A model generated the notes under the pieces. The model did not search any database, was not told the origin of the DNA, and worked only from the letters and a program-made list of their open reading frames with translations. Below are positions 7,206 to 64,000 of a stretch of DNA of 64,000 nt, piece by piece. Position 1 is the stretch's first letter. Every line of letters begins with the position of its first letter. This stretch comes from Loxodes magnus (lineage: Eukaryota > Ciliophora > Karyorelictea > Loxodida > Loxodidae), in NCBI GenBank assembly GCA_946699065.1, contig CAMPDV010001743.1, positions 33,412 to 97,411 on the forward strand, read 5' to 3'. The position numbers were made by a program, and so were the translations under genes.

Positions 7206-7395
7206 TTTTTTTATGTCACAAGTTTTATAACGAAGAATTTATAGCCTTATTATAATAAATTTTATATGTATTTATTAATTATAGCTATTCTTAGTTTTAA
7301 ATCAAAGACTCTTTTTAAAAAACCTTATTTTATACCCTTTTAAATGATAAACAAAATAAGAAATAAATAAATGAATAATAAATAAATAAAAATGA

Positions 7396-8239: not shown

Positions 8240-11200
8240 TGTTTACATCTCATCAATTTTCCTTAATTAGTTCTTCTTTCTATTCATCTTTAGCTTCTTC
8301 CTTTTTTGCTTTCTCCATTTCTAGAATCTCAAGTCTCTTGTCATTAGCTTCTTATGAAATATTTTAATCTATAAGTAAAATAATCCAATTTAGACCTTGA
8401 AAATGAGTTTAGATATTCTTGATCGTATAGTATAAGGCGCCTTAAGTCATAATTTCCGATCTTTTCCGATAATTAATTCATTATATTAGAATAGTACACA
8501 TATTTAAAGATATGCTCGAAAGTTTCATACTCTCCACACATACAATAGGGATTATCAATGGGGTAATGACGATCTTAAAGATCCTTACGGAAATTATAAG
8601 TTTAGGTTCTAAGTTTATATATACTGATAATTTCTCGTCTATACTATTTGTTTAATTTAGTATAAGTAATTTGTGGAAGTTGTTAAAGATTACCGAATTA
8701 TTCAGTATATACTTTAGCTGTTTTCATTCTCATAAATTTTTTAGTAGCTACTTTGTAGAAATATTGTTGTATTTTTTCTCTTACATGCTTAGTAAAAGTT
8801 TTAAGATTGGTATTATTCTATTAATTCTGCAGATCGATATTATAAAGATCTGATAATTGCTACACTTAATCGTAGTATTGAAATCCTTTTTTCCATATAT
8901 TAATGAAAAGAGAGCCTATTGTTGATCTTGGAAAATCAATACTTTCTTATTTAATTTTATGGTAGAATCTGAAGAATTTTATAGCCATAATGTGCTTAAA
9001 AGGTAATCAATTCAGGTCTATATAACATGATTCATTAAATGTTGCTGTTGCTACTTAAAAAGCTTTTCTTGAAATTAATCTCATGCTTGATTCTATTCTG
9101 TTCAGAACTCCAGTTACTCCTTTTTGAATACTTCATGGTACTAAGTCTCCTCCATATTCTGCTTTAGGTAATGTAAAAAGTCTACATAAAGTTTTTAAAT
9201 GTCAAGGAGTTACATTCTTATGAATCATCAGTTAAAAAACAGCTTTCTTCATTGCAGCTAGATATTTGAATGCAACTTCTTGCAATGGGGATTTAAGTTC
9301 TTCTTCTGATGTAGAATAACTCCTAAATATGTTACTTGTTCTTTTTAAGCAATTGGTTAATTTCCTAATCATAAATTTAAAATTTATTATTTCTGATTCT
9401 TCTTTAGAAATTAGATGCATTCAGATTTGGTAACATTGATCTTTAAATGTGCTCATGCAAAAACTTTATTTGCTTCATTTATTAAATTCTACATCTACTT
9501 TGCAGATTTGGAAAGAAGAATAAGATCATCTGCCCATCCTCTACAAGCGAAGCTAATACTTGAATCCAGGCATTTAAATCCCAATTAGTTACTTTTACTT
9601 TCCAGATATCTAATTACTATGTCATAATACAATAATACTAAAACTGGTCCATGAGAACTTCCTTACATAACTCCATTGTTGAATTATAAAGTTCTGGTGC
9701 TCTTTCCATCTATGATAAATGAAGAACTTAGGTTTTTATAAAATGATTCTAAGGCTATTATTATTCCAAGTGGTAGTTTAACTCTCTTAAGTTAATCAAA
9801 CCAGAGTCTTCTTTCTATTGAGTCAAACATTTTTTCAACGTCTATCAGTGTTGATATCAATTTAGTCTTACCTTTAGCACATTTCCGATAGTTATCAATT
9901 ATTTGTTATATTATTCAAATTTATTAAGTTGTTTATCTGTTTTTCATAAATCCCATTTATGAAGAGTGAATCAAATTTCTCTAATAAATCAGATTGTATA
10001 GTCTTTTTGTTAAATTTTTATCATATAGTTTTAGAATAGTATTAATAAGAGAAATAGGTAGTCAGTTTTTCCAATCATCTTTATTTCCTTTTTTAAATAT
10101 TGGAATTATCACAGATATATTTAATTCCTAAGGTATTCTTCCAAGTCTTAGCATATTATTCAGAAAAGAATGAAGAATTATTAATAAATATTATCCACCA
10201 TATTTCAGAAGTTCGCCTTTTATTCCATCAGCTGCTTTTCGATTCGGAATTTATTTTATAATTTCTTATATTTCTTTTATGGTAAAAAGATCAAATCCTT
10301 ACAAATACGAGAGTGGATAATCTTTAATTTCTTAAATATTATCGTATATTTTATTTTAATTACTAAAATTTATCTATTCTTGAGTTAGATTAGAATGCTT
10401 GTTAAAAACACAATTTTCCCATGATTCAATAAATTTATTTTTGATTTCTTAACTAAAGTTCATAGTATTTCTCTTCAAAGGATTTAAAGATTTCCTTAGA
10501 ATCTCCATTAAGAAATAGAAACTTCTTTTTTGCTTTGTTTTTTTTAAATTTTCATAGATTATACTTGAAGTCTTTCCAAAGTCGTTTTGCTGCCTCATGA
10601 AGATTGGTTACTTGCTAGTTTATTCTTCCAAATTTTATGTGAGCGTCCTTATATTCTGAGTTAGCTCTTTTTGCCTCTATATATTTCTTTGTGAGAGCTC
10701 GAGGAAGTTTGTTATAATTTGAGTCTGGAATAAACGAATCTAATGTTTAATCAGCATTGTCTTAAATACTACTTTTGATGCATTCATATTAATCTTCAAG
10801 ATTATCTTAATCTATTTAAAAGAATTCTAGATAAGTTTGTAGGAAAGATTCTTAATATTTTTGCCTATCTATTGCATCTTATAGCCTATTTATTTTATAT
10901 TTTCTCTGAGTTATTTTTTTCCAATATACTATAGAATTATTGATAAAGTCGACAGTGATTGGAATATGATCAGAAAATAAACTATTATTATGAGCAGTGA
11001 AATTTGCAAACTAATTAACGTTTAAATGGTTGTTTATAATGATATAATCATTACAATACGTTTTTCCTGTTCCTTTGTGAATACATGTATTAATGTTGCT
11101 ATCATTCACTATCTCAAGATCGTTTTATAGTAAGAATTCTTATATTCTAATAGTATTATCATAAGCATTTTCAGGATTATCACCAAAACCTTATAAAAGA

Positions 11201-12180
11201 GCATTAAAATCTCCCATTAGTATATGTGGATTATCATTATATAAATTCAGCAATGTATTTAGTTGTTCATAAGTTAAATCTTTAGCATCTTAACTTTTTC
11301 CATTATCAGGCATGTAACAAGACGTGATTAAAATGATATCCAGTTTAATTGTTATGAATCTATTTATTTCTTTTTCAACTTATATATGTATTTCTGTACT
11401 ATTAAATTCTTCTCCTACAATTAAGCATACACCTCCTCCTTTTCCTGAGTTCTTAAAATATGTTTTAAATCCATTTATCAATATTGGAGGAAAGTCATCT
11501 TTTTATCGGGTTTCGTTTATTGATAAAATATCTATACTGTTATCTCTGATAAATTCTTCAATATTCAAGCACTTGCTCGCTATTCCATTAATATTTATAT
11601 GTCCCATCTTTATTTTTTAAATTTATTAGTCCTTTCTAATTTTTCCCGATCCTGCAGGTAGACCACTTTCGTAAATGCAAATGCTTTTCTATCGTTATTG
11701 GTTAATCTAAATATGTACTAATCTTTTTCCATACTCAGGATGTTAATGAAAATATTGTATCAAAATATATATTACTTACGTCCTATATTTTTTAAGTAGC
11801 TTTCTATCTATATCAATTTTACTTTTCACACTATCACATGTACCTTATTCTAAATCTTAAGTAACTGTGACATATCTACCTTATATATTGTGCATTTCGT
11901 ACTATGGACGTCTTCAAGTTTCGGATTTAATAAACTTTTAAAGTTATAGACTAGTCAGATTGAAATAACATATTATTTAATCGCACTCTTTTTTATTATT
12001 ATGTTTACTCATACGTTTTGCTGGCGGAATTGTTTTAACTTCTTCTTCATGTTTCCTTTTAAGAATATTAAGATTAATATTGGAAGATAAGGTTTAATTC
12101 TGATAAATAGCATCAATCGAATCTGTTTAGTTTTATTAATCTTTTTTAATCTTTTAGTAGAATAATTAAATATATCTGTT
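8240..12180 (-). pseudogene. LINE family A ORF2: APE endonuclease + reverse transcriptase, frameshifted
   Basis: Cuts target DNA and copies element RNA onto it. From ATG 11607 (MGHININGIASKCL) the APE-type endonuclease is easy to follow: INETR with the catalytic Glu, GKGGGVCLIV, MGDFNALL and FSDHIPI with the catalytic Asp/His. The same frame is already open upstream, so EN may be fused to a longer N-terminal part. RT motif A reads DVEKMFDSIERRLWFD (~9830), motif B GVMQGSSHGPVL (~9660), and the catalytic box GWADDLILL is at 9519-9545 (Trp in place of the usual Phe/Tyr). TGA falls on Trp in FA-[TGA]-AHLKIN, TP-[TGA]-HLK and LVP-[TGA]-SIQKG. YLGVIL and the following LPKAEYGGD are in different frames, so at least one frameshift is certain. 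The C-terminus CMCGEYETFEHIF is the usual LINE Cys/His tail. Confidence 0.8.
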
Positions 12181-17020: not shown

Positions 17021-17107
17021 ATTTTTCAACTTGACAATATATAAGAGATTTAAAATTTATTTATGTAATATATTAATAGGAAAGGTAATATCGGATAAAT
17101 AAATAAA

Positions 17108-33414: not shown

Positions 33415-34075
33415 CTATAAGTTAAGAAATATTAAAATAGCTTACCTAAGTTAAGAATATTAAAATGACTTACCTAAGTTAAGAATATTAAAATGCCTTA
33501 CATGCTATAAGTTAAGAATATTAAAATACTTACATGCTATAAGTTAAGAATATTAAAATGACTTACCTAAGTTAAGAATATTAAAATGCCTTACAATCTA
33601 TAAGTTAAGAATATTAAAATACTTACCTAAGTTAAGAATATTAAAATAACTTACCTAAGTTAAGAATATTAAAATGACTTACCTAAGTTAAGAATATTAA
33701 AATGACTTACCTAAGTTAAGAATATTAAAATGCCTTACAATCTATAAGTTAAGAATATTAAAATACTTACATGCTATAAGTTAAGAATATTAAAATGCTT
33801 ACCTAAGTTAAGAATATTAAAATGCTTACCTAAGTTAAGAATATTAAAATACTTACTTCCTATAAGTTAAGAATATTAAAATGCTTACCTAAGTTAAGAA
33901 TATTAAAATACTTACTAGCTATAAGTTAAGAATATTAAATACTTACATTCTATAAGTTAAGAATATTAAAATGCTTACTAGCTATAAGTTAAGAATATTA
34001 AAATGCTTACATCCTATAAGTTAAGAATATTAAAATGCTTACTCTCTATAAGTTAAGAATATTAAAAGGCCTTAC
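33415..34075. repeat. Minisatellite, ~22 units of 26-33 bp
   Basis: Core GTTAAGAATATTAAAATGCT with a TTAC spacer, repeated about 22 times. Two spacer types alternate irregularly: a short CCTAA form and a longer one carrying CTATAA after ATGC, ATCC, TAGC, AATC or similar. Units differ by only a few bases, so the array is recent or homogenised. The plus-strand unit has no TCA, so no TGA arises in any minus-strand frame across the array. It begins about 80 bases beyond the apparent end of the minus-strand RING/B-box gene. Confidence 0.9.
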
Positions 34076-34155
34076 CTATTTTAAAAATAAAAGTTTAAAA
34101 ATGCAACGTACTTCCTTTAATTAGATTATTTACCATCTACATATATTATAAAAAA

Positions 34156-36067: not shown

Positions 36068-38768
36068 ATGGAAGAATTTTCCCTCTAAAATATTACTATA
36101 TAAATAATATTTTGCTACATAGCCAAGGGATACGATGAATTTTAGGAAAATATTGCGAAATTAGTAAGCTTAAATAAAAATTTAGTAGAATAGCTAGATG
36201 ATACCTATAATAGCCTCTAGTAGATAACTAAATTAATACTCGTGACAGAATATCAAAGAAAATTAACAAATATTTCTATCATTACAGAATCTTAACTTAA
36301 GTTATAATCACATCCAAGACTTCTCGTTTATTAACTACAAATAACTAGAAAAGCTGGTAGTTAGTCATAACTAAGTTTAACAAATTTTCTGAAATGCTGA
36401 TCTCTTAGAGTTGACAGAAAGATGATATTTCCTGAAACTAGTTGAAAAACCTAGAAGGACTGGAGAACTACTTTTAGTGCTTGATACTTGCTATATTGAA
36501 ATAGAGTCGTAAAAGAAAACGCAAGATAGCATATAAATTTTGGCTTATCCTCAAAAATAGACTTGAAATAGAACTTCTTTAATCGTAAATATTATCCGTA
36601 CTTAGAATAGAAATTAAAATTTTAAGAGTGTACTAAGAGCCACTAACATTAGAAAAGTATGAGTAACAGAATAAAAATTTAAAGCAACTAGCAAAAATAA
36701 TAAGTGCATGGGGATTATTTTATAGTAGCATGGAAAGATTGAAACATTAAATTTTATTAATTTTAATGAATATATGAAAAATTAAAGCTTAAGTTAGCAT
36801 GTTGGATATATAGCTATTCTCTTAGGTGAAGAAAGTAAAATAACAAGTTATTAAAAAGCTAGTATGAAGAAATTCAAACACCTTTAAAAATGATTATAGT
36901 TAGCCATTAAAAATGCTATTAATCTTAATGTAGAATACCAGGGTTAATTTCCAGAGAAGTGCAAAATTCATTTTAATTTCCTACTTATTAGCCAAAATCC
37001 ATTTCAACTATGAAAATCTGTATCTCACCTCATACTTATTAAGAATAATAAAAGTATTATAATCTTTATAGCTCCGTATGTGAAAAAACTTATCATTATT
37101 CTAGCTGAGAAACAAAAAATGAACGAAACTTAATAATAGCAAGAAATAAACACTCCAAAATAAGAAGAAATGCTCAATGGAGTAAAGGTAATCCATTAGA
37201 CATTTCTGAAATGATTCAAAGAATTAAAGATATTCAGATTAGTCTAAATCTTAATCTCAGGAAATAATTTAAAGTACTAATAGCCAATAAAGTAGAAGCA
37301 GTTTTATTAATCAAGGCATTTAAATTGAATAATTTTTTCATATCTACTTAAGATGAAAAATAGCAATCAAGAGGCAGAATTTTAAACAGATTATTTTTAA
37401 AAAACTTAAAATAGATCTACTGCTTCTTTTATCTTCAGGTGAATATTTAAAACATTGGAAAGACATACTTCTGATAAACTTATAGAGTAGATAAATTTAA
37501 ATATACACAACAGTTTTTCAATAATGAAAACTAAACTAAGATACAGTAAATAAGTAAAAATAACTGAAAATTAGTAAGGTAAAATAACTAGAAGTAAGGC
37601 AATTAAAACCTTGATATCCTTGAAGAAATAACTAACTGAATGCCTTTAAAGTTTGTTTGAAATTAATGAGTCATAGAAGGAATTGATTTTATAAGGGTAA
37701 CAATAGAGAGGTGACCAAACTACTTAAAGCAAGTAGATACATCTTGAAGATAAATGTTTATCTCATTTCAATTTCTCCCACTTTCTATCTTCAGATCTGC
37801 TCAAAGACACTAATTAAAGTAAAGTGATAAATTTAGTCAAAAAGGTAAGAATGATTAAGATACGTGCGACAGGTAGAAAAGTAATTGGAGTAACAGCGAA
37901 AAATAGTAAAAGTAAATTAGCCTAAAGAATCAAAAACCAGGCTACTCAAAAATTTCTAATTAAAAAACTTGCAAATCCTAGTCAAATTTAGAATTCTATT
38001 TAAGCTTTAATTTGTAAAGCTAATAAATAGCAGAAATACTTAAGTTTCAAAGATCCTAGTATGATGCTAAAATAAAATGGAATTAAAACAACGCCAAATG
38101 AATATAAGAGTTAGAGAATAAATCAGTTTCTCTATTAACTTGAGATAAGTATCCTAGAAATCAGGGTTACTTAGAAAGAAGGCAAGTGTCTAAGAATAAA
38201 AAAATGATAACAGAAAAGAAGTAAATAGTAGGATTTGGCTCAAGAATACAAAATCAAATAAGAAAAGCCTAAATATTAATTTTCTCGTTTATCTATATAA
38301 GATAATATCCCAAAAAATAAAGCTATATGGAATTGGCAAAGCACTTTGAAATAAACTTTAGTATCTATAAAAATATTCAAAGCTTATTAACTAAACTACA
38401 AAAGTAAGTACTTGTATAGAAAGACTAAGAAAAGTTAAAAAAAATTGAAGAAAAAGATTAAAGAGCAGTTTATTAAGGAAATGAAATTGAGATAATTTGT
38501 CGAAAACAGGAAATAAAAGCGAAAAGAGTAGTCAAGGTCAAAGAGAAATGTAGGAGAGTTTAAATTAATCTATTAGTAACTCCAAAATTAGTATTTAAAG
38601 ATGTTTTAGAACTTTTGAAATAGAAATAAAGTGACGATTATTATAATCATGTTTTAAAGTTCGAAAAAGGAGAATAAACCAGTTCGCTCAGCAAAAAGCG
38701 AGCAAAAGAAGCCTTTAAACTCATAGATGGTCTTGAATAAAAATTTTAATAACCAGATTGAAAGGTGA
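36068..38768 (+). CDS. Large unknown protein, 893 aa, one 19-nt intron
   Basis: ATG 36068 (MEEFSLQNITIQIIF) opens the frame. Removing GTAGTTAGTCATAACTAAG (36357-36375) joins it to a second frame that stays open to TGA 38766-38768, giving 893 codons. Across the junction the protein reads LQITRKAVQQIF, then LLELTERWYFLKLVEKPRRT and GELLLVLDTCYIEIE, which has the flavour of a C2-type beta sandwich (inference only). Later segments include FNEYMKNQSLSQHVGYIAIL, NVEYQGQFPEKCKIHFNFL and IIIFIAPYVKKLIIIL, then a long Lys/Gln-rich basic C-terminal third. Several TGA codons are in frame, so an earlier stop (e.g. near 38212) is possible. A partial inverted copy lies at 63650-64000, so it belongs to a repeated family. 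Function unknown. Confidence 0.6.
36357..36375 (+). other. 19-nt intron
   Basis: GT...AG, length 19. Without its removal the two coding frames of this gene do not connect. Confidence 0.5.
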
Positions 38769-41800: not shown

Positions 41801-44800
41801 TAAATATGAAATTTTATTTGCCCAACTGATAGCACCATCTTCATCCTATAAGGCTTAATTATTCTAAAAAGTGTTATAAGATAAATTAAATTGCCAAAGA
41901 TAGTCAAAACACACTAATCGGATAGCTCCTCCCTTGGGCTTATCAGGTTTATCATTTTTTCTGGCTTAGTTTTAATAAAAAGTATTGATAGATATGCTTA
42001 CATTCACCTGTAGCACTAAAATAGCACCTTCATCTTGATAAGCACTACATTAACTAAAGTTAGAGTTAAAGATTTTTATGAAGTTAAAGTTTTTCATTAT
42101 TAGCGTTAGTAATGAATAAGCATCCACCAGAAGCTTCTGTAATATTGTAGAATATAGAATCTTAAATTGTAATGTCCTTACTTTCTTCTAGATAAATAGC
42201 TCCTCCTTCTTTATATCCTCCCCCATCTCTAAATGTAGTTCTAGTTATAAGTGACAGCGCTGGAGAAATAAAATAAACATATCTTAAGCTAAAGTTTACG
42301 AAGAAATCTTAGTCCAATGTAACTTAGCAGTTATTACAGTAAATACTTCCATAAGTATCATTGCTCTGGTACTTATTTCTCTAGGAACTTAAATTGATAT
42401 CATTTCCAAAAATGACTTCTCCATATTTCCCCTCAGTGGTAAAATAGGTAATATATAGAGACTGTTTTAGAGGTTGTTAGTTAAGAATATGGTTAAAGAA
42501 TTAAAGAATTGGAAATAATTAGGTATCAGTTAGTAATAAAGGATGGTTAGTTTGGTATTTAATTATGAAAGGTTTACTGAAATGATAGGTAGTACTGGTG
42601 CAAAACAGTTATTTACTTTATTTTGAGAGGTTGATTATAAATTTTGGATTTGAGCATATAAATAGTAGCTAGGCTTGCTATATTACTAGTAAGAACTGAA
42701 TTTTAAATCTTATTGCTTGAAAGGGAAGATATTATAGATATAGCTGATACTTGGCTTTTACAGGAGTTTCAAGATATATTCGAATCTTTAATCTACATCT
42801 ATGATTCTGACTCAGCATATACGAAGCCTCCTTGCTTATCAGCTGAGTTATTAAACGCCATTTATTTAGATAAAATTAGCTAGGCGTTTGAAGTTAAGTA
42901 AATAGCGCCTCCTAAAGAAGCATTATTTGCAAGAAACATTCTCAAAATTTGGCTAAGTGACTTTTGCGCTTACTAAGAGCCTGCATATAAGTATGGTTGG
43001 TTTTGATTAAAAAGGGAATTTTTTACTTAGAATAGAGGAGAATGAATGATATAGAGCAGCATATTGATAAGCATAGTTACTAGTAAAAGATGAGTTTTAT
43101 ATATTCATTCTAACATTAACTAGCTAAATTTATCCTTTTCTATAGGTAGTGTTCCCAACTAATCTTACATTTATAAATTAAGCTTCTACGTCTTCAAAGC
43201 AAAGTAAAACATCTTGTGATGTATTTTCTATCATTTTAGTTCTTTCAAAAGATATCAAATTAAGAAATCCAAAGCTTCTAAAATATCCCAAACAAGTCTA
43301 ATAGTAATAGTTTTGCTCAAAGATTCAGTCTCTATCATCATAATTCACATCTTGGAAACCAAAAATCAAACCAATATTCTTGAAGAAAGTACAGTTTTCC
43401 GTTCTTATTATTATTGGATATCCTCCATCCCACTTTGTCTAGATTAAGTATGCAAAATTAAATTGATTGCCTGTATCTATGTTATAGCTGAATTCACACT
43501 ACTTTAAGTATATTTCTCAAACTTAATTCAGAGAGTTTTATCCCATTAATAAAGCTGGAATTTTGGTTTATTAGAGTATTGTACTTAAACTTTACTAATA
43601 TGAACTATAAATAATTCCAATTTTACAAAGCAATCAAATATTTTGTAGAGGTTTAGTTAGAAAATTCAGAATTTCTAATTTTGCTATCAATCCTTAATAA
43701 CATTCTATCCAAAATTTAGAAACTACAAATTTATTTTCCGCTGCTTCCCTAAAATTTACTGTTTATTATTTACAAATTTACTATATTATGCATCCTGGCT
43801 AGTTTCAAATCTGCAGCTGCCATTCAACCTATATTTTCCATTAAAAAAGTGTTCTCAATTTTAAAGGAGGCAGTTTAAGTTTTTCCATTTACATTAAGCA
43901 TTCTAGTTTATCTAATTATTAGATAGCTAGTCTTTATTATTTAAACTGCTAGTTTAGGAAAATGTGCAATTAGTTATCAGCACTTATTACCAGAACTTAA
44001 TTTCCATTCAAGGCTATAAATTACAATTCTTGCGCCTTATCACTCCTTATGCAGTCCTATACTCAGTTTACTATCATTCCTCCACCTCTTTCATTATAGT
44101 TATCAGAAAATATATTAAAATAGATATGCAGAGTTAACTATAATTCAACAACTAATATAGCCAAAATCTGTTTCAACTCAATTTTGAGTCAATCAGTTAT
44201 TCATTCAGATTTAGTTATAGCAAAAGCTACAATTAGTCATCTTAATATCTTCTACCATTCTTATTTACTCAAATATTACATCTTCAACTATTCCAAAATT
44301 GTCATCTTATAGATACAAGCCACAGAAAAATCTCTAATTATGGCTCAATATATTGCTGCTCAGTATCACTTAAAGTTAACTACTCAAATTATTGATGTAA
44401 CTAAGTTATAGCTAAACTAACCATTTTACTAACCATTTTAGCCTTCTATTGCTGCTCTTTATTAGGTGCCATTCAAATCACTCTCATACCAAATATCTTA
44501 GTTTTAAATATCTTCATAACAGTCATTCAAATCTCCTGTTAAATAACTTACAGTTTTGAATCAAAAGGATAGCTTCAATTTCACTGTATAGATAGTTTTA
44601 TAAATACGATCAAATTAAGCTTTTAGTGAAGGTAGCTTCGTTTATTTAGATTAGTTGAATCTAGTTAAATTAAAAAACCAAGGAAGCACAATTCCTGCAT
44701 AGTTTTAATCTCCACTTTTTTAATCTAAATTATGGAAATTATTTATTTCACTCCCTCTATTAAATTTTAGACTTCCACAATCAAATTATTCGTGCTCTAA

Positions 44801-45730
44801 TACTCAATACATACTAACTAAATACTTTCATGAATCAAGAAACTAAAAATTTGTGTCATTAAAGTCTAAATTACAAGATTATCATTCAATGTAATTACAA
44901 TGATACTTAGAAAATTGATGAAACCAAACATTATTTAAACTCAATTTTCCTTGAATGATCATTATCAGAGATTATGTATTTTTCAGACATTCATTTCCAA
45001 AAAAATAAGGTTATTTAAAATATCTGTTGCTAAACTTCATGAATAACCATATTTATCAAGTAAAGAAAAAGGATCATCTCTCGAAAAGGAAGTTCCTGCA
45101 TATATATTACAGGATCACTTATCATTTTTGTAGAAATACACATTTGGGAGATTCATATTTAATGCAAATGTGTGAATTTTTAATATTACGTTCTCAAATT
45201 TTAAGTGGCTTTAAAAGAAAAAAAATTGAATATCTGTTCACATGAAAAGAATTTTAGTTCTTTCTTTAGGATCAAAAGTACATTTAACTAAGTCTGAAAT
45301 TTAGTTTTTTGGATACTGAAAGCAATAAAGGGCTTAAATAGTTAATTGCTTAAATTACTTGTATAAGCTTTTAGTCTATAGTTTACTTTAGGAGTAAAAA
45401 GTAGCTAGTAAAACTGTCAGGAGCTATTGAAATTTTTCCTTATTATAGTTCGTCTAAATAATGAGTTCCATTTGTTAAAAGAATCTTAACATAATTCTTT
45501 TAAACTCCTTCTGCCAAAGCTTCAGCTAATGAAAGATAAGGTCGATCAAAAGTTCCTAGTCCTTTGTATAAAATGCAGCCAGGCTGATATTCTCCTGGTT
45601 TAAATTTTGAGTTTTCATTTGGTTATTCGCTAGATGCCCCTACGAAATAGAGGGTTGTGGTAAGTGGAATAAAATTTTTGATATTTTCCCTCGAAAATCA
45701 GTCAGCTGCCAGTTATCGAGAAATTTTCTA
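38840..45730 (-). CDS. Very large surface protein: beta-helix repeats, Cys-rich region, multiple TM segments
   Basis: A multi-exon gene read right to left; exact joins are uncertain. The N-terminal part near 45700 is hydrophobic (ILLWIFLYCVL), fitting a signal peptide, followed by GTFDRPYLSLAEALAEG. From ~44950 to ~41800 come repeats of the POMP/parallel beta-helix type: NCTFFKNIG, MQNSSFTSNYA-like units, NNASLGGAIYLTS, NNSADKQGGFVYAE, QDEGGAIS-[TGA]. A Cys-rich block follows near 41200 (CYVCDQAKYSL, DCESCPEEAECT-[TGA]-G, CGPCPDSQ), then a TM helix (IIRIFMIIVVIIVTFFVII). Beyond a skewed, intron-like gap (39740-40520) more membrane segments appear (MLAMFIAVNLYLAFIFA). This order is typical of the large ciliate 'transmembrane protein' families. 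Many Trp are TGA and many Gln TAA/TAG. It converges with the gene ending at 38768. Some frame changes are unresolved: introns, errors or decay. Confidence 0.65.
39740..40520. other. Non-coding, strand-asymmetric gap inside the surface-protein gene
   Basis: The left half of the plus strand is G-rich and nearly C-free (GTGGGTATATTGGTAGTAAT), the right half is C-rich and nearly G-free. Coding signal for the surface protein is present on both sides but absent here. It could be a long intron or an inserted element; the skew flip would let the two halves pair weakly. Confidence 0.4.
42432..42616 (-). other. Probable long intron (~185 nt) in the surface-protein gene
   Basis: On the minus strand coding signal stops near GTAAATAACTG (42616) and resumes after ...CCACTGAG (42432) with GKYGEVIFGNDINLSS. 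The interval is C/A/T-rich and G-poor on the sense strand. The exact splice sites are not certain because the reading phase does not fit perfectly with these ends. Confidence 0.4.
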
Positions 45731-46149
45731 TTATTATAGCACGCAATAGAGAAAAATTCAGAGTAATATTGAATATAACAATGTTATGCCCCTCTCCCTC
45801 GCGAATTCGGACCAAAAGCGATAGTTTTTGAGTACTGGAACTAATAAAAAGGGAAAGATTTGAAGAAAGCGAAGCTTCCTGAGAAAATAACAACGCAGGA
45901 GACCTTTTATTCAAGCAATCTAAGTTTTGATGTTTCCATCAGTACCATTCCCACAATTAATAAGCTAATTTAAACAGGTACAGAGATATCTTCATTTCTT
46001 AAGAATATTAAAATTGCGCTACTTGAACAAAATATAATTTCGCTTATGAATCCGATTAAACTAAAAGTTTTCTATTCCTAGTAACTATAATAGATGAATA
46101 CGTGAGATATTTAAACTAGTTTTGTTTGGATAACAGTAAAATGGATATT
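45731..46149. other. Boundary between host gene and archaeal-like block
   Basis: Minus-strand frames remain open to about 45914 (e.g. IREGEGHNIVIFNITLN), so the surface-protein gene may start there. The plus strand first shows recombinase wording at about 46150. No target-site or terminal repeat was recognised at the junction. Confidence 0.3.
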
Positions 46150-46925
46150 TTTAAATTAATATGAAAGTAGACGCTCAGAAGAGGATTAAGTATCCGAGTA
46201 ATCACAACCTATCTTAATTGTATACAAAGATTATTTATATAATATCCAAAGGATCCTATTGAAATTTATATGATAGCTATAAAGGATTTTCTTGATAGAT
46301 TAGTTGACAGAAATTTCCCGGGAAATACACTAAATGTGCATATGAGCAGCCTTAAACTTTCAATATCAAGAAATTGCATAAAAGTCTCTTGCTCAGGATA
46401 TGTTATTAGAAATACCAAAAATGCTACCTAATTTTTTAATAAAGGCCTTGCTTAATACTATTGATAATCCAAAGCACAAACTTATTGTGAAACTTATCTA
46501 TTCAGCAGGATTTAAAGTAAATAAGATTATCTAGTTAAAAATGGTTAATCTTGACCTCAAGAAAGGATTTAGATGAGAATGTAAAGGCAAATATAGCAAG
46601 AATATTGTTTGCCATTGCAGACAGCCTTGAGGATAAAATAAAGGAGTATAAGAGGAATAGAAATAGCTCATTGCTTTTCTCGAGAAGAAATGGGCATCTT
46701 ATGTTCGGAATGTGCAGCAAATTTATCGAGCAGCTGTCTTAAGTGCTGTTATTGAAAAGTATGTACATCCTCATACCTTAAAGCATACCTTTGCAGCTTA
46801 TCTTACTAAGAATGGCTATGATGCTAGCTCAACTCAATTCTTACTAGGATATTCTAGCATCCAGGCAACCTCGATGTACTAAGGCTTCGCCCAAAATGAT
46901 CTGTTCATTGTCACTTAGACAGTTT
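46150..46925 (+). pseudogene. xerA: XerA-like tyrosine recombinase, archaeal type, decayed
   Basis: N-terminal core-binding domain: RGLSIRVITTYLNCIQRLF, DFLDRLVDRNFPGNTLNVHM. Catalytic domain after a frameshift: LLEIPKMLPNFLIK, ALLNTIDNPKHKLIVKLIYS, AGFKVNKIIQLKMVNLDL, then HPHTLKHTFAAYLTKNGYD, FLLGYSSIQATSMYQGF. Family knowledge: Xer recombinases use R..K..H-x-x-R..H/W..Y. Here the first Arg (GLR in relatives) is Lys, HxxR is HTLK, the LLGH His is Tyr, and only HxxR's His and the final Tyr survive. At least two frameshifts and a TGA (GFR-[TGA]-EC) interrupt it. The wording is closest, from memory, to XerA proteins of archaea (DPANN groups), not to eukaryotic YR transposons. It cannot be active. 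Confidence 0.75.
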
Positions 46926-46984
46926 ACCATAATAATAGACAGTTATTTTTTCTAGAAATGGATAAATACTGTGTCCGCATATCA

Positions 46985-47655
46985 AACTGAGATGATTTTA
47001 TTGCAAGAGATAAGGTAAAGGGATTGTCAAATACCCGTAAAAGTTAATTTGACAGAAAGTTTTTGGAAGCAAAAAAAATCTAAATATTCTAAACTCAGAC
47101 TAACTTGCTGACAAGCTTCATATGGCTAAAACATGGAGATTGAATGAATTCTATAGGAATAGGGTTGCTTTCCTTGGCATAGAATCAACAGACGTTCTTA
47201 AGTATGATGAGCTTACTGACATTGGTTTGCTTGATGGGATTGATACAAAGACAATGTTAAAGGCATTAATCTCAATCTTTTTGCATTAAATCAGGAATTG
47301 AGCAAATATAGCCTTATTATTACCTTTAATGGAGAATCTATTGGAATACCTTTCCTAAAAAAGAAAGATCCTGATATACTGCCTAAATCCCACTCTTTGT
47401 TGTAAAGGCAACAAGTAGGAGAGTAGGGTAATTAGGCGGCCTTAAAGTGATTGAAAGTAACTAGGAATGCAATGAAAAAAGATAATACAATTTTTATGGC
47501 GGTGATCATGTGGGCTTATAGATAATGTATCAGGCAACAGGAAGATGAGTATTATGTAAAGCTTCTCTTTAAATACAATGAAGAAGATGTTGTTAATCTC
47601 AAGTAAATTGCTGACTTTACAATAGATAGGCTACAAGAAACAGTGAATCATCCCT
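46985..47655 (+). pseudogene. Archaeal RNase H-like 3'-5' exonuclease (YprB/RNase_H_2 type), decayed
   Basis: Starts with N-[TGA]-DDFIARDKVKGLSNTRK and FDRKFLEAKK, the helix-hairpin-helix-like lead-in of archaeal proteins of this family (usually ..WEDFL..DKVKGLS). Then LHMAKTWRLNEFYRNRVAFL and GIESTDVLKYDELTDIGL, followed after frameshifts by ALNQELSKYSLIITFNGESI, GIPFLKKKDPDILPKSH, FYGGDHVGLQIMYQATG and KYNEEDVVNLKQIADFTIDR. Family knowledge: the active-site DxE lies in (F)LDIETT, TFNGxxFDxPF and YNxxDV. Here DIET is GIES and FD is IG, so metal binding is lost. Several frameshifts. The TGA at the lead-in Trp fits TGG-to-TGA drift in a host where TGA means Trp. Confidence 0.75.
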
Positions 47656-47689
47656 AAAAATTAGTTTATAATATCCAATATATCTTTCT

Positions 47690-48115
47690 GCTTATGAAGC
47701 ATGAGTAGATTAAGAAAATGATTCCAAAAAAACTTAATGAAGTACATGAAAAAGAAAAGATTCAGAAGCTAAGGCCAACACAGATGGAGGTAATAAAAGC
47801 AGAATTATCGAAAAAAAAGCATCTCCTTGTGTAAACACCAACTGCATCCAAAAAAAAATTGGCCACAGAAATTAAATCACTTACATCTCTGATTTAAGGA
47901 AAAGGAAAGAAGCCTTGTATTGTCCCATTAGAGGCATTTGCATCTAAAAATTACAAGGAATTTAAGATAAAATTTGAATATTTTGCCAAATTTGCTCTTT
48001 TTATTGGTTGTATTGAGATAACTGAGCCCTATCTTGCAAAATATAACTTAATCATAACCACAAGAGAAAAGCTAGACTCATTGCTTAAGCATCATGCGCC
48101 CTGGATCTAAACATT
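47690..48115 (+). pseudogene. Hel308/Ski2-like DNA helicase N-terminal fragment, archaeal type
   Basis: Reads MIPKKLNEVHEKEKIQKLRP, TQMEVIKAELSKKKHLLV, then TPTASKKKLATEIKS, KKPCIVPLEAFASKNYKEFK, EPYLAKYNLIITTREKLDSL and LKHHAPWI. This is the order of motifs Q, I, Ia and Ib of Hel308 helicases (relatives: ..LLVCTPTASGKTL.., IYIVPLKALA, YLAKYD.I.TTSEKLDSL.RH.APWI). Walker A GKT is changed to KKK, and the DExH box expected ~20 residues further on is missing. Only helicase domain 1 is left. Orientation and tight order with the recombinase and exonuclease suggest one block of archaeal DNA. Confidence 0.75.
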
Positions 48116-48960
48116 TAAGTAATTATCATTGAAAAATCATCTTCTCAAAAATCCGGGAATTGAGCTGATGAATAGGTTTTTAATACTAAGATACTCTATT
48201 TTTAGAAAAGTTATATCTTGCTGATGTCAAAAAGTTTTATATCAATTTTTGACAAGGACTTAAGAGGAATATTATCTTACAAGCTCGTCTCAGGCTGCTT
48301 ACACTCATAAGATTCTATTAATTCCTGGCATGCGTAATCCTTTCATTGCCTTTCTTTAAATGAGGGGAAATATTAGTGGAATACTTGCAGCACAGTTTAG
48401 CTGTGGCTTTTATTTTGGAAATATTAGCCTAACAAAATGCCAAAAAATGAAATAAGAGAGAATTTATCAACTTTCTTTGCATTAGCTGTATATATCTCAT
48501 TTGTACGAGGCATAATTAAAATCCTGTTTAATTTTGGTTTTACACGAATTTTTCCCAAAATTATATAATGCCTTTTAATACAGGGATAATTAAAAGAAAT
48601 TGAGAATCCTCCAACGCATTTTGTAACATTCTATCTTTTCCGGAAAAACACGACCCGAATAACATCATAAGAGCGTTTGAAAGCTTAGAATGCTATTTAA
48701 CAGGCTTTACTGTATTGTTTGAAAACCTTATAATGCTATGAAAATTTAATTAAATTTTGTTAGAGCAAATGTATAATTCCTAATTACATAAATCAATTTC
48801 TGAGTAAGGCTCATTACAAATTTATAGATTTAGTAGAATTTGATGAAGAAGATAAAAAAAAGTTTAATATTAAGCTGATTGTTAAAAAAGAGCCTGTTGT
48901 TACCCTCTTGATATTTTATCCGAGAAAGAATTCCAAAAAAACAAGAAAGTTAGATTACTT
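48116..48960 (+). pseudogene. Further decayed coding-like DNA, origin unclear
   Basis: Short coding-like pieces in several frames: LLKNPGIELMNRFLILRYSI, LLIPGMRNPFIAFL, GNISGILAAQFSCGFYFGNI, DPNNIIRAFESLECYLTGFT and LVEFDEEDKKKFNIKLIVKK. They are not AT-noise but I recognise no family. They probably continue the archaeal-like block, possibly with rearrangement right after the helicase fragment. Confidence 0.3.
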
Positions 48961-49388
48961 TAAAAAGATGTGAAACTAAGCAGAATTGAAGAAGATGAGA
49001 AAGAGAGAAGGTTCGAAGAAGAGTGTAAAGCAAAAGAAAGATGAGGATTCAGACTATATATGTCAGAGCAGCTGACCGAATATAGAGAACTTGATGTAAT
49101 TCCATCTTTGGAAGAGTGATCCGAAAATACCTCAAGTGACAAAGGCACATGATCTCCTAAATCTGTGTGAAGGTAAATTGGTGTTAAGAGATGTTTCTGG
49201 GAACCAAAAATTTTGAAACAAGCAAAAAGCTGATGGCAGAAGAAGAACTTATTGGTAGCATAAAAGTAAAAAATAATTTTGAAATTCAACATAATAACTA
49301 AGTAAAATTAACTATTACCATAAATATAACCAATCTAATCAATCTTGATCATAATATAAAATAATTTATTATAAAATAACATTAAAAT

Positions 49389-50888
49389 ATGCAAATAAAT
49401 ATGGAACCTGAACTGAGAAGAGAAACAGAAATTAACACAAATGGGAGAACTTACCATTATCATTGTATTTTAAAGGGTGAGCAATTTACGGTTCGTCTGG
49501 TCAAATTTTTTACAATTACATTCGAAAAGAAGTTTGACAAAACTTTTTTGTTGGATAAAGATCCAAGTTGGATGGCCATAAAAGAACTGAGCACAGTGTA
49601 TGACTTTCTTAGTCTCAATATTAATCAAACAAGCTTTAACCTTGTCGAAAACGAAGAAAGCATTACATTGGTAATAAGCTGGACACTGAATGAATATATT
49701 ACATTGCATTTCAATGCAACTCTATCAAAAGAAACAGTAAAGCCTAATATTGTCGTTGAAGAATTAGGCATGAAATTTTTAAATTTATAACGCAAAGTTC
49801 AGAAAATTGAGAAATATTTTACATTTTATAGTCAGAATATGTTTTGCAGGAAAAATTGTAAAATTTACCAGGACGTTTTTACAGCAGGGGATGAGTCTGT
49901 ATTGAGAAGAATTGGAGGAGGGGCATATGACGCAACTTCTTATGGGACCAAAAATAAATGGAACTATACTACTATGATTAATTTTGGGGGAAATGAGAGT
50001 GATGGTAATGGAGCTGAGGTGAGTATACCTGAGGGATTTGACTTGCTTTGGATCAGAGTGTTGAATGACAGATTTACTGATGTCTCAATTTACTTTTTAG
50101 ATGGAGTTAAAGAAAAAATCGGTAGGTTTTACGCTGGGAATAGACATTTAAATGGAATATCCCCAAAAGGAACATCAGCAGATGGAGGATATGCCACTCA
50201 TTTATGGATGCCAATCCCAGTCAAAAGAAATGGAAAAGTTGCGATGGTCTCAAAAGCAAATACTACCTCAGGATTTTGGATATCAGGGATTGCCTTTGGA
50301 TTGAACATTTGGAAGATTGCCTACAATCCTGCAGGTGCATACTCATTGAACTTAAATGGTGGAAGTGGAGTGATAGCACATAATCTTTGGAACTAAGATC
50401 AATTAGCATATGTTGCTGTAAACACAGTTGGAGTGTTGTATGTTCCGGTAATCCCTTCTAAAAATAATAAGATGCTTTATTGGGTGAGCCATAATAACAG
50501 TTGGAATGATAATTGTTGTACCCAGGTGAGGGTAAACGACGTTGAAGTGGATGGTTTTTACGATGGATATGATAATCCAATTGCGAGACATCATAATGGA
50601 AAAATATATTCAAGGTATTTTGCAACAATTATACCAAAAGAAATAATTCCAAATGATGCAACTTTCATCAAAGTTGAAATAGATATGTCTAAGCAGGTAA
50701 CTAATGGATTTCATTTCAGAGAGTTTGGAACACATGATGAGCTAACTTTTGATTGTATCGAAATTTAAAAACTATCAACTTAAATAATTATATCTAAACT
50801 ATTTTAGTAATGGGGCCCATAAATAATAGTGACATATACTTTAGCATTTATATTTTATATTACGTAATTCTTTGTTTTATGTAGTTGA
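49389..50888 (+). CDS. Intact unknown protein with atypical codon use
   Basis: ATG 49389 (MQINMEPELRRETEINT) opens a single frame. It crosses TAA at 49788-49790 and 50394-50396, both Gln in the host code (LNL-Q-RKV, LWN-Q-DQL), and is coding-like to 50765. TAA 50766 would end it under the standard code; under the host code it runs on to tandem TGATGA at 50886. The first ~130 residues look like one beta-rich domain (VRLVKFFTITFEKKF.., TLVISWTLNEYITLHF). The following ~310 residues are Gly/Asn/Trp-rich (IGGGAYDATSYGTKN, FDLLWIRVLNDRF, GTSADGGYATHLWMPIPV, HFREFGTHDELTFD), resembling a beta-sandwich surface or capsid-like protein. All Trp are TGG and most Gln CAA/CAG, unlike the other host genes. 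No signal peptide or TM. Function unknown. Confidence 0.7.
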
Positions 50889-51602
50889 TGATAATTAAAA
50901 TGAAATGTAAAAAAATAAAGTTGAACTCTGGAAAATATCTTTCCGTTCAAATTTTTAATTAAAACATATTTATGACCCAAATGCCGAAATTTATTGTGGC
51001 TTGCTTGAAAACTGATCATAGGATAAATTTTCAACTATGATAGAGTCTTATCAATTATGTATTTAAACGGATTTGAAATTAACTTAAATAATTAAAATTA
51101 ATCCAATTATTTAATGCAGAATTTATTGTACAATTAGCGTATAATAGATAAATATTCTCAATCTTTTCTAACATCCTTGAATAGCAAAGTGATTATATTA
51201 TAAAAAATGTCAATTTTATATATTTATCTCTTAAAAATAGCATCAATATACTTTATGTCTCATTTTGTTGAAATAATGAGATAGCAGTTGATATTTTAGA
51301 TTTTGACTAGAAGAGTTAATTTTCCTTTTAAAAATGTTCAGCTTTATTAATTTTATAATTTATAGAAATATAATATCTATTAACTGATATCTATGCTTTT
51401 AAATATATTTTATTAGAAATGCTTCATTAGTTCGTTAGTATAATGTAAACCTTTAATAATTAAATTACCTTTAATTTATTGTTCATATTTAGCATATAAC
51501 TAGCAAGGAATTTTTAATAAGTTATTAATTTAAATAAACCTTCACTGAAATTTAAATTGTAGGTATTTTATATCTAAAAATGTGGAAGAAAGATACAGAT
51601 GG
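50889..51602. other. AT-rich spacer, no gene seen
   Basis: About 0.7 kb of AT-rich DNA. No coding pattern or repeat recognised. Confidence 0.4.
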
Positions 51603-53763
51603 ATGTCAACAACGCATATCTATAAGAAGAAATTAGGAGAGTTTGGGGTTAGAGGGTAAGAAAAAGAGGCTTTCATTAAGTAAATAAGGGTAAACGTGTT
51701 CATTATGGATGAGTTACAAGGAGAAAGGATCCTAGCAAAAGCTTAAAAGCAAGGAGGAGTAGAAAAGCTTTGAGGGTACTGATACTTAAAACTTCTAGCA
51801 TTTAAAGATGCGATAAATTTGCGATGATTACTATACTGCTGACGAACGGTCTATACTGAAAGATTTAAAGATTCAGATCAGTCTTTTATAGGAAATTTAG
51901 AGATTCTAAATCAAAACATGAATAAGCAAAGCTAAATTTAAAGATTCATCAAAAATTATTCAGAATCCACTCCTAACGAAAGAAGCAATCAAAGCTAGTC
52001 TAGTTTGATTAGCTCTCAAGAATTTAATTAAAAAAAGCAAGCCAATAAAGTTTAAGCACTATAATAATAAAAATAAAGAAAATTAGAAGCAAAAGTTGGT
52101 AATATAAGCTAGATAGAAATGGAATAATAAGAAGCATTAGATTGAAAAAAGTTTATGACTTCATAATGGACTTTTCCTTGCACAAAAAAACCAAAGAAAA
52201 GAAAAATTTAACAGATTTGAGAAACATACCTAAGAAATAAGTTTTGGCAAAAGATAGTTTCGTTCCCCTAGAATAAGAGAATGAAAGAGATAGGCAAGCA
52301 AATAGCGCTACATCTTTATAAAATTAAAGTTCATTTTCCTGTCTAAGAGATATAGGTAAGAAGTAACGCTTTTAAGACGCTGAAAGTGAGTTCAAAGGAG
52401 CAATCGAAGTTGGTATGAAAGTATAGATTTGAAAGATAAAGGAAAAAATATAATAGTAGAGGAGATGAACGGAAAATCAGGGACAAAAAGAAATATGGAA
52501 AAGTTTTATATTTTATTAACGAAAGACAGCAACGAATTTACAACTCCCAATATAAAAATATCTATTCAAAATAGTTGAAAATAAAAAGTGAGACAAGCTT
52601 CCCAAAAGTACAGTTTAAAGAAAATACCGCGATTGCTAAAGATTAGAGTGCAAGTAATTTAGTTAAATAGCTCGAGAAACTAAAAAATCATTAAGAGCTT
52701 TAATACTGAAGTATAAGTTAGATATGGAGATCATTACTCTAACAAAGAAGCTATTCTAGTTGCTTTCGTAATATCCTTAGAACTCTTAAAAGTTTCAATC
52801 AAGAAATGAATCTTTTAAGAGATTTTTAACAGTTTTTCTATTATTAAGTGTTAACATTGAATGAATAACTTTAAAGCATACTTATCAAAGAACTTAAGTG
52901 GAACATTTTCTTGATTTTTTTGTTTAACCAACAGTAGAAACAACTCCAAGTAATGATGTTAAAGTGAGACACTGAAAATTGTTAGTTGCGGAAAAGTCTT
53001 TATACTAAGAAAAAGTAGTTTAAAGTAATCTGAGTAATCTATCCTGTTTAAGCACCTAAAAAATAAAAAAAAAACTTAGATTTGGAAATCAAGAAGACAA
53101 ACTGTCTCTTCCAAGAAAATTAAGCAGCATAATCTCTTTAGTAGAGATTACTTTTACCCTTAGAGAAAATCTTTCTGATGAAGTAGCAGATTTAAATAAC
53201 CAATTTTATTTACTATATTATTTTATTGCTATAGACTGGCGAAAAAGCTTAGAAGAAAAAGAACAATATTAATAAAAGATTTTAGCAAAATCAAGTTTTA
53301 GAGAATAATTATAATTCTGCGGAGAGTTAGTAAACTCACAGATTTTGAATAAGATATGCTATAAGTCTTTAAAAATCTTTTAGTATGAAATAAACAAGTT
53401 ATTAATACTTTAGTTTAAATTAAAACCTTATACCTTATACACTAGTAACTATAGAGAAAATAAGTCTATTTTAATTGGTATAAATCATAATATTCACTTT
53501 TGTAAAGCTGTTCAAATAGGTAAAATAATCAAATAGCAAATAACATAATGTAGTATCATGTAAAAATTATTAGAATTCAATTCCAGATAGCCGAGGTTGA
53601 TAGAATTTGCCTCTTACTAGTTAGCTTAGATTATCAATCTTTTTGTATAATCCAGACTAGAAGTAGCTCTATTTAACTAAATGGATTTATGGATTAAATA
53701 AGTATATTAATAAAAATGGAAATTCTTGCTTTATTAAAATCTATTGAAGACTTAAAATAACCT
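51603..53763 (+). CDS. Large unknown protein with a 17-nt intron; 3' end uncertain
   Basis: ATG 51603 (MSTTHIYKKKLGEFGVRG) opens a frame with in-frame Trp-TGA codons (VEKL-[TGA]-GY-[TGA]-YLKLL, INLR-[TGA]-LLYC). Composition is mixed and coding-like through ISSQEFNQKKQANK and NERQQRIYNSQYKN. Removing GTTTTTCTATTATTAAG (52832-52848) joins it to the next frame: RDFQHVNIEWITLK, EHFLDFFVQPTVETTPSNDV, IISLVEITFTLRENLSDEVA, FREQLQFCGELVNSQIL, then ...LEFNSRQPRLIEFA. Gln/Lys-rich central region. I see no known domain. No clear stop is found near 53763; the frame stays open well beyond, where the opposite strand also carries a plausible ORF, so I end it conservatively. Confidence 0.5.
52832..52848 (+). 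other. 17-nt intron
   Basis: GTTTTTCTATTATTAAG. Its removal exactly restores the frame between two coding-like segments. Confidence 0.55.
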
Positions 53764-53789
53764 AGAATTACACTTAATGATCGTTTAAG

Positions 53790-54204
53790 GTAATCTAGGC
53801 TCAATGGTCACTTTTTCTTCAGTCTCTTTCCCTCTTGAAATTTCATTTTTCTTTTATAAAGAAATAAGCCTTTAAATGCTATTACGCTTACTAGTCTTTA
53901 TGATTTGGTGGATTTATCTCCTTTTTATCTAAACGTACGTCTGTCTTTACTCTATAGCTAAGATTTTTAAACATAAGTCTATTCTCAGGCCATAAATGGA
54001 AAAATATCATAAACTTCTAAAGCGTCTTTTCTGTTTCATAATTCTTAACTGATTTATTTTTTTTAACATTCATAAACTAAGAAACTCATTACTTGAGCTA
54101 CCTGTTTTCAAAATTTATTTACTTTTAGCTAAACTCATAATCAGTTCTTTTATTGCTGAGATATTTCTTCTTAAATGCTCTAATATTGGACCATCTCAGT
54201 CCAT
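53790..54204 (-). CDS. Possible small gene, convergent with the previous one
   Basis: From ATG 54204 the frame reads MD-[TGA]-DGPILEHLRRNISA, IKELIMSLAKSKQIL, then a very basic stretch (RIMKQKRRFRSL, IKRRQIHQIIKTSKRN) and SRGKETEEKVTIEPRLPQT. Composition is coding-like, richer in charged residues than chance frames. The plus strand is also open here with a hydrophobic translation, so one of the two is a shadow. No family recognised and no clear stop. Confidence 0.3.
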
Positions 54205-54889: not shown

Positions 54890-55880
54890 TTCGCTTTCGT
54901 ATGTGACTTAGTCGCTTTGGTGATGTTTCAACACCAAATAACGGAAGAGCTTTGATGGGAAAATTTTAGTTTCAAGAAAGTGCTGAAGAATCATAGATTG
55001 AATTCCAAGCCTTCGATAAGAAATCCAACAAGACTTATAGTTCTTTCTAAGAGATATAGCAAAGCTACAATATTTTCCATTACAACTATTATTGGATTAA
55101 AGTCTAGAACTAGAGAAATATTATCATAAGATTCGCTGTTAACCACTTCGTTGAATTGACTAACGAAGAATTCTGAAAGACTTGCTTAGGATACAAGGAT
55201 ACTTAAACAGGGCATAAAACTACATATATGAATATATATAAAATGTTGCTGATTCTCTTGATTGGGAATTGAAGGAAGCTTTAACATCTGTCAAAGATTA
55301 AAACCAATGCGAAAGCTGCTGTGCTTTCAGTGCTTTAGGAAGTTGGGAAGGAGCTTACTTCATAAAAACTGGACAATTGGTATCTTCTCTGAATAAGAAC
55401 TAGTTGATTGTTCTAATTCATTTGGCAACCAAGAATGCAATGGTGGATGGACGGACTATGCCTTCCAATATTGGCAATAGAATAGTGAAGAAACTGAATC
55501 AGATTTTCATACACTGGTAAGATGGATCATACAAATTGATTTCAACCAAGGATATTATAGCAAACTTTGTAGATGTTCCCATTAATGAAGCTGCTTTGAA
55601 AAATGCAGTCAATGGACGTGTTGTATCAGTTGCAGTTGATGCTTCAAGTTGGTCTTACTACTCTGGAGTCATTTATGATGGATATTGCTCAACTTCACTT
55701 GATCACGATGTAACACTTGTCGGTTATGGAACTGAAAATGGACAAGACTACTGGAGAATCAAGAACTCATGGAATACATGGTGAGGAGAGAATGGATACA
55801 TTAGATGGAAGAAAACCGACTCAAGTTCCTCAGGTGGACAATGCGGAGTTGCAACCTCTGTATCATACCCAAATCTATGA
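54890..55880 (+). pseudogene. Papain-family (C1A) cysteine protease with frameshifts
   Basis: A secreted or lysosomal endopeptidase by family. A hydrophobic N-terminus (IIIPLFAFVCDLVALV) is followed by the I29 propeptide: FQAFDKKSNKTYSSFQEIQQ and AVNHFVELTNEEF-[TGA]-KTC. The mature domain has SLDWELKEALTSVKDQ, QCESCCAFSALGSWEGA around the catalytic Cys (relatives CGSCWAFS, so G-to-E and W-to-C), [41 protein letters not shown] with the catalytic His, and NSWNTW-[TGA]-GENGYIRW with the catalytic Asn. The TGA there is the invariant Trp. Stop TGA 55878-55880 follows SYPNL. One-base deletions break the frame near 55385 and 55525, another near 54960, and no start ATG fits, so it is a recent pseudogene unless these are sequencing errors. 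Confidence 0.85.
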
Positions 55881-63649: not shown

Positions 63650-64000
63650 TTTTTAACTCTGTTTCTTACTTTGGAGCTGTTATTTCTTGCTATTATTAAG
63701 TTTATTCCTTTTTGTTTCTCAGCTAGATTAATGATAAAGTTTTTCTACATACGGAGCTATAAAGATTATAATAGTTTTATTATTCTTAATAAATATGAGG
63801 TGAGATGCAGATTTTCATACCTGAAGAATGGATTTTGGCTAATAAGTAGGAAATTAAAAAGAATTTTGTACTTCTCTGGAAATTAACCCTGGTATTCTAC
63901 ATTAAGAATAATAGCATTTTTAATAACTAACTATAATCATTTTTAAAGGTGTTTGAATTTCTTCATACTAGCTTTTTAATATCTTGTTATTTTACTTTCT
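63650..64000 (-). pseudogene. Partial inverted copy of the 36-kb gene (runs off right edge)
   Basis: The reverse complement of 63650-64000 matches 36835-37170 nearly base for base in several blocks, e.g. AATACCAGGGTTAATTTCCA, AAAGCTAGTATGAAGAAATT and TTATAATCTTTATAGCTCCG. The translated core KKFKHLQKWLQLVIKNAI, LNVEYQGQFPEKYKILFNFL is shared. Small insertions and deletions break the frame after SQNPF. Its 5' part lies outside the window. Either a gene family or a segmental copy. Confidence 0.75.

Follow-up and report, generated by a model that had tools for sequence, protein, structure and literature searches.

How did three broken genes of archaeal type come to lie in the genome of the ciliate Loxodes magnus? 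They stand head to tail on the plus strand at 46,141-48,215 of the window, by which we mean the whole 64,000-base stretch of DNA analyzed here, and read as a XerA-type recombinase, an RNase H-fold exonuclease and an N-terminal piece of the helicase Hel308 (Table 1). We consider it likely that a Woesearchaeota-like archaeal fragment was inserted into the nuclear genome of L. magnus, decayed there and then spread.

Three gene remnants on one strand

Profile searches of mechanical translations detected Phage_integrase, RNase_H_2 and DEAD helicase domains in that order on the plus strand. Homology was measured with a purpose-written, frame-aware protein-to-DNA aligner, and the real scores were compared with those of 12 dinucleotide shuffles per gene, of the reversed protein and of the opposite strand. 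XerA, RNase and Hel308 scored 436, 448 and 344. The corresponding control maxima were 38, 43 and 39 for shuffled DNA, 34, 33 and 45 for reversed proteins and 33, 39 and 35 for the opposite strand, the remnants scoring more than seven times as high as any of these. Unmended pieces were 30-38% identical to the database proteins found by search, and the best relatives, among which the donor was not found, were about 45-50% identical in the frame-aware alignment. Together with the Pfam and NCBIfam matches, these scores bear out the initial annotation, which had seen three decayed genes (XerA, RNase H-like and helicase) on one strand. Its span of 46,150-48,115 was correct to about 100 bases.

Table 1. 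Coordinates of the archaeal-bearing segment, its gene remnants, its flanks and host features in the window
Feature	Positions	Strand	Basis or remark
Archaeal-bearing segment	45638..48753	.	Breakpoints; about 0.5 kb extra before XerA and about 0.5 kb after the last helicase residue
XerA-type tyrosine recombinase pseudogene, nearly full length	46141..46929	+	Pfam, NCBIfam, PDB, alignment, tree
RNase H-fold (PF13482) exonuclease pseudogene	46930..47645	+	Aligned part 46,979-47,645; start inferred
Hel308 N-terminal piece pseudogene (split-Hel308 type)	47682..48215	+	Pfam, NCBIfam, PDB, alignment
Left flank	45300..45637	.	Occurs without the archaeal segment in C121 and C639, 91-92% identical
Right flank	48754..49500	.	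98-99% identical in arrays of about 2.5 kb spacing (C473, C1840, C1586, C1927), archaeal segment absent
Cathepsin-like cysteine protease (I29 + C1), host	55003..55871	+	Shifted frames; TGA at a conserved Trp position
LINE-type endonuclease (Exo_endo_phos_2), host retrotransposon	10555..11913	-	Pfam

The homology of the XerA remnant spans the N-terminal SAM-like and the catalytic domains, and its nearest relatives are archaeal. Pfam recognized Phage_integrase (E 9.7e-16, above the curated cut-off) and Phage_int_SAM_4 (E 0.0018, below the curated cut-off). The best NCBIfam models include archaeal XerA (2.3e-21), and the best PDB match was 4a8e, a 'probable tyrosine recombinase XerC-like' that we take to be Pyrococcus abyssi XerA. 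In the frame-aware alignment (46,138-46,929), 117 of 261 aligned residues are identical to those of locus L197. Two conserved Arg are changed to Lys and two conserved His to Tyr, and the terminal Tyr is kept; the two Arg columns and one of the His columns are presumably catalytic positions. Because the catalytic set is incomplete, we regard the XerA remnant as a pseudogene and not an enzyme.

The RNase remnant matches the PF13482 family profile (RNase_H_2, E 1.4e-6, above the curated cut-off) and falls in an archaeal clade. Over its aligned part, 105 of 219 residues are identical to protein P0062 when frames are followed. The conserved acidic residues of PF13482 are incomplete: conserved Asp are lost at 47,176, 47,343 and 47,399, and the Asp of the NEED motif is kept.

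For the helicase, 79 of 161 residues over 47,682-48,170 are identical to L166/L099 (frame-aware), and some templates extend the alignment to 48,215. Pfam recognized DEAD (E 1.6e-5, below the curated cut-off), and the Hel308-type NCBIfam models PRK00254 and helicase_Hel308 matched at 1.2e-24 and 8.2e-23. Because the reading is broken, these two scores, like that of XerA, fall far short of the curated cut-offs set for whole proteins. Among solved structures, five sequences matched the RNase-helicase piece at E of 0.01 or lower; four are Ski2-type or Hel308 helicases, presumably archaeal. Gly and Thr of Walker A are changed to Lys, and the intact motif is absent. The motif roles given here for the changed residues of XerA, for the RNase aspartates and for Walker A of Hel308 are those we take them to have.

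Hel308 is divided into separate N and C pieces, in separate frames, in most of the Woesearchaeota and Nanoarchaeota genomes searched (L092-L104, L166-L195). Of 40 genomes, 36 contain an N piece (E < 1e-80) that stands alone in an open frame of 218-293 residues. Our literature search, which reached part of the literature, found nothing specific on split Hel308 in Woesearchaeota or Nanoarchaeota. The window helicase matches such a stand-alone N piece, and no C half was recognized downstream of it (scores 37 and 41, against 31-40 for shuffles). The Hel308-type identity proposed initially stands, with the refinement that the helicase is an N-terminal piece only, as in split Hel308.

Archaeal kinship of the remnants

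As judged by sequence comparison, the three pieces are of archaeal, DPANN, Woesearchaeota-like kinship. The RNase is present in all 40 of the Woesearchaeota-type genomes examined. Woesearchaeota predominate among the source names of the best 120 of 3,167 proteins in a profile search with the RNase; there are also some Nanoarchaeota and a single Thermoproteota. Most of the best 80 of 210 relatives in a genome scan are titled Woesearchaeota or Nanoarchaeota; among the rest are single records titled Aenigmatarchaeota, Methanosarcina and Chloroflexota, and several titled only archaeon. The RNase tree places the window inside a clade of 91 rows with support of 100/100, and the Chloroflexota, the Methanosarcina and one Nanoarchaeota row fall outside. 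The bootstrap of this tree had not settled, and it supports the clade of the window, not a position within that clade.

XerA was found in 33 of the 40 genomes examined at E up to 1e-20. In its tree, the window row lies with Woesearchaeota rows in an 11-row clade (support 100/99), and this clade is set apart from other Woesearchaeotal XerA rows. The Hel308 tree separates the N pieces, including that of the window, from three full-length Hel308 (97/95); its branches are very long, the window's included, and its bootstrap had not settled. All trees are without eukaryotic rows, as the collections searched contain no eukaryotic genomes, and a nearer relative or a carrier among eukaryotes may have escaped these searches.

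As an unbiased comparison, all 97,411 bases of the contig, of which the window is bases 33,412-97,411, were searched with 3,873 stop-to-stop ORFs from the complete genome of the archaeon GW2011_AR15, and nine rows were better than the 1e-3 limit. The three top-ranking proteins were the RNase, the Hel308 N piece and XerA, with matches side by side at 46,165-48,215 of the window. Two weaker GW2011_AR15 proteins matched the same stretch, one at 6.9e-5 on the strand opposite the RNase and one at 2.7e-4. The RNase and XerA clades, the names of the hits and the GW2011_AR15 test uphold the archaeal, DPANN-like kinship that had been proposed at first, and the Hel308 tree does so more loosely.

Candidates for further archaeal genes on the contig were set aside. 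GW2011_AR15 gave one row elsewhere, at 7.4e-4. Another 14 rows, from the ORFs around 80 RNase loci, lie beyond the 46.5-47.5 kb bins; the strongest has 4.7e-4, and we take these rows as chance.

The initial annotation had proposed looking for one archaeal genome with the three genes adjacent, and none appeared around 80 RNase loci, around 53 XerA loci or in 40 genomes. Near the 80 RNase loci, 63 of which have at least 1 kb on both sides, XerA was absent, and the only helicase was a distant one (L054, 25% identity). Beside the 53 XerA loci (L196-L248) there was no RNase, and two distant helicases were seen; the phylum search matched 71 genomes, and loci were taken from its best 30 places, some of them already in the set. 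In the 40 archaeal genomes, XerA, the RNase and the Hel308 N piece did not occupy near positions. Either the order of the donor is unsampled or the three-gene order arose later. The lack of such an arrangement in the archaea sampled leaves a single-fragment donor a hypothesis. The remnants share with Woesearchaeotal XerA, PF13482 and split Hel308 genes the same domains, about 45-50% identity and a helicase N piece that lacks its C half. The Loxodes block differs from these genes in being broken, in lying in a eukaryote and in having an order unseen in the sampled archaea.

Copies and breakpoints of the segment

The block had been described as a single fossil, and a look for similar blocks elsewhere had been suggested. 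It is instead a repeat with breakpoints on both sides, present nearly complete at 38 or more places spread over many contigs. A DNA search of the L. magnus assembly (705,730,643 bases, 7,843 contigs) with positions 46,400-47,600 gave 40 rows, which comprise these places and one 132-base fragment. Two identity classes are evident: 31 places, the window itself included, are 96-100% identical, and seven older loci are 78-87% identical, being made up of eight rows at 75-87%. A further partial place lies at C846:47,261-51,083. These copy counts are lower bounds, the candidates scored in the own-genome searches being 39 of 39, 8 of 608, 81 of 81, 40 of 202 and 40 of 104. The coordinates of C846 and C1090, of C1051 and C2484 and of C1378 and C1387 are equal or nearly so, and these pairs may be alleles.

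A protein search of the genome with the RNase returned 80 rows, among which there was no full-length open frame and the stop-free rows were short. Many RNase copies are split across rows, from which the state of each copy was judged. The C-terminal part of the RNase is 49-54% identical to the archaeal protein in the older loci C343, C108:100,667, C383 and C145, and 41-43% identical in most younger copies. That these four older loci are closer to the archaeal RNase is as expected if decay continued in the ciliate. The older locus C108:60935-61444 is just 32% identical, which runs counter to the rule that older is closer. Many young copies, and likewise C343 and C10, show a row break near RNase residues 114-120; C108:100,365-100,670 lacks this break and is stop-free over residues 37-139. 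Decay seems to have been partly common by descent and partly private to lineages.

We located the ends of the segment with two further queries. The first, 45,300-46,600, gave 41 rows from the 40 candidates scored out of 202, and 28 of these rows span it. The older loci C10, C383, C108, C145 and C343 start at 45,637/45,638, and C121 and C639 match only DNA left of 45,638. The remaining rows are partial, two being cut by contig ends and two, on C554, stopping near query position 790. With 47,700-49,500 (40 of 104 scored), 16 rows span the query and 24 start at 48,754, most of the latter sitting in arrays with a spacing of about 2.5 kb. These breakpoints, the two ends of which were taken from different sets of loci, suggest a segment of about 3,116 bases at 45,638-48,753. 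It joins host DNA on both sides, on the same contig and with host genes, as a decayed insertion does.

About 0.5 kb of unassigned DNA to the left of XerA is common to four older loci and the younger loci, and is partly present in C343; entry was therefore probably single. A longer query (42,000-54,000, 8 of 608 candidates scored) gave one match of 9.4 kb, five of about 7.2 kb and two of about 4 kb. Several young copies therefore share long flanks. At the breakpoints of the window copy, which was the copy examined, there were no terminal inverted repeats and no edge or target duplications. The left end is constant in five older loci, with a flank that differs from the left flank of the younger copies.

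We propose that a short Woesearchaeota-like chromosomal fragment carrying XerA, the RNase and the Hel308 N half entered the ciliate nuclear genome. The inserted fragment would have yielded no working gene and would have decayed through point changes and small indels. The segment of about 3.1 kb (45,638-48,753) may then have spread, to older places now 78-87% and younger places 96-99% identical to the window. The younger copies, at least six of which share several kb of flank, probably arose by duplication of larger stretches. We would place one founding insertion at the start of this course, with entry through the germline and a prey or symbiotic archaeon as the source.

The segment could alternatively be read as an archaeal-derived tyrosine-recombinase element, with XerA as its integrase, that moved itself within the ciliate before dying. 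It encodes a recombinase, the XerA subfamily stands apart from other Woesearchaeotal XerA rows, and five older loci have one left end in common, but the sequence that flanks the younger copies on that side is missing from them. We nevertheless find self-movement unlikely: the breakpoints of the window copy lack terminal repeats and target duplications, the long flanks common to several younger copies are as in duplication, and the presence of the RNase in 40 of 40 and of the Hel308 N piece in 36 of 40 Woesearchaeota genomes suggests ordinary chromosomal genes. Cryptons and other tyrosine-recombinase transposons occur in eukaryotes. Like them, the Loxodes segment has a tyrosine recombinase within a repeated segment; unlike them, it has no recognizable termini, its recombinase is archaeal and only broken copies were detected. 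We doubt that the segment is a dead DPANN-archaeal recombinase element that founded a repeat family in the ciliate nucleus. If true, this reading would mean that a eukaryotic transposable element began as chromosomal or mobile Woesearchaeon DNA, and the segment would be a datable trace of past intimate contact between an archaeon and a ciliate.

Beside the block lies an ORF of 579 codons in the ciliate code (49149-50885, plus strand), the second half of which has few TAA/TAG. Its start is in DNA that recurs at a spacing of about 2.5 kb on other contigs. Searches of Pfam, the PDB, phage and plasmid records and viral_contigs gave no match to this ORF, and PHROGs gave one chance-level row. A structure model of it (mean pLDDT 32) was too poor for use.

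Decay, host setting and meaning

The families have 133 columns with conservation of 95% or more, and the window departs from them at 42, including catalytic positions; the count uses the RNase family without L067, L075 and L077 and, for XerA, the 10 rows near the window (eight loci, P0006 and P0007). The aligner placed small frame shifts in all three genes. With its frames shifted and its catalytic residues lost, this copy is dead. Assuming about 2.2 residue-changing sites per codon, 32% changed codons would correspond to roughly 0.17 substitutions per site since selection ended.

In L. magnus, TAA and TAG encode Gln and TGA is Trp or stop, and introns are mostly 25 bases or shorter, most commonly 17 (PMC11441545). 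Because TAA, TAG and TGA can be sense codons in the host, in-frame stops alone prove no decay. The initial claim of decay holds for the frameshifts and the lost active sites; these three codons are unreliable as stops in this species.

The same code raises the question of whether the genes were first expressed and adapted to the ciliate and died later. Such a working transfer would be in keeping with stop codons that can be sense in Loxodes (PMC11441545) and with the one older RNase copy that is stop-free over residues 37-139. Against it, the commonest family residue is Gln at none of the 12 in-frame TAA/TAG. At the four in-frame TGA, it is Trp in two. This pattern speaks for mutation over adaptation to the host code. 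The shifts are of one or two bases each, with no intron-sized inserts, and the tight, prokaryote-like intergenic spacing is still kept in the remnant block. We judge an earlier working life in the ciliate to be very unlikely.

Recombinase and helicase genes can travel on mobile elements, and both gene types are present here, as they might be if a virus, one of the sources suggested initially, or a plasmid had carried archaeal genes into the ciliate. Among 183 pattern matches in viral_contigs there was no RNase relative, and six-frame Pfam scans of 36.3-64.0 kb recognize no viral gene, which makes such a carrier highly improbable.

Archaeal kinship alone would also fit an assembly chimera or archaeal contamination, an explanation that is almost certainly wrong given that the remnants are decayed, that at least 38 near-complete places lie on many contigs with shared and distinct flanks, and that the study giving 706 Mbp for the macronuclear assembly of L. 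magnus used HiFi reads and sorted nuclei of more than 99% purity (PMC11441545). The LINE and the cathepsin-like gene in the window, together with these copies, agree with the initial placement of the block in ciliate nuclear DNA and not in contamination.

Several other features were observed in the window. An inverted repeat (36830-37166 and 63663-64000, 93% over 341 bases) reaches the contig end and has the archaeal block between its arms. A tandem array of about 22 copies of a unit of about 28-32 bases occupies 33409-34079, a region of strong GC skew. There is a direct repeat at 8133-8964 and 14379-15196 (82% over 843 bases, about 6.2 kb apart), and 7378-7440 and 17095-17157 are 84% identical copies with short GC-rich stretches, perhaps of a SINE-like element. 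A long ciliate-code frame at 42033-42941 (minus strand) has weak similarity to a right-handed beta-helix, below the curated cut-off. No telomere-like CCCCAA repeats were found, and there were no tRNA or Rfam matches within the 64,000 bases.

Organelle and symbiont DNA is known as inserts in nuclear genomes, as with NUMTs and Wolbachia inserts. Like these, the Loxodes block consists of prokaryotic genes, apparently unadapted to the host, that decay in the nucleus; unlike these, it comes from a DPANN-type archaeon and was amplified to dozens of places. The L. magnus genome also carries a Rickettsia-derived gene cluster (PMC11441545). That cluster resembles the archaeal block in being a prokaryotic gene cluster in the same ciliate genome, and differs from it in being bacterial and in showing signs of recent transfer (PMC11441545). 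Words beginning with 'archae' are absent from the main text of that paper (PMC11441545).

In the part of the literature searched, we came across no account of DNA from DPANN archaea in the genome of a ciliate. DPANN archaea are mostly regarded as partners of other archaea. If a ciliate nucleus carries a decayed and amplified DPANN piece, this would be a physical sign that such an archaeon met a eukaryote, whether as its prey or as its symbiont. These data suggest that DNA of tiny Woesearchaeota-like archaea can enter a eukaryotic nucleus, decay there and multiply. With dozens of copies in two identity classes, both its entry and its spreading would be datable from sequence.
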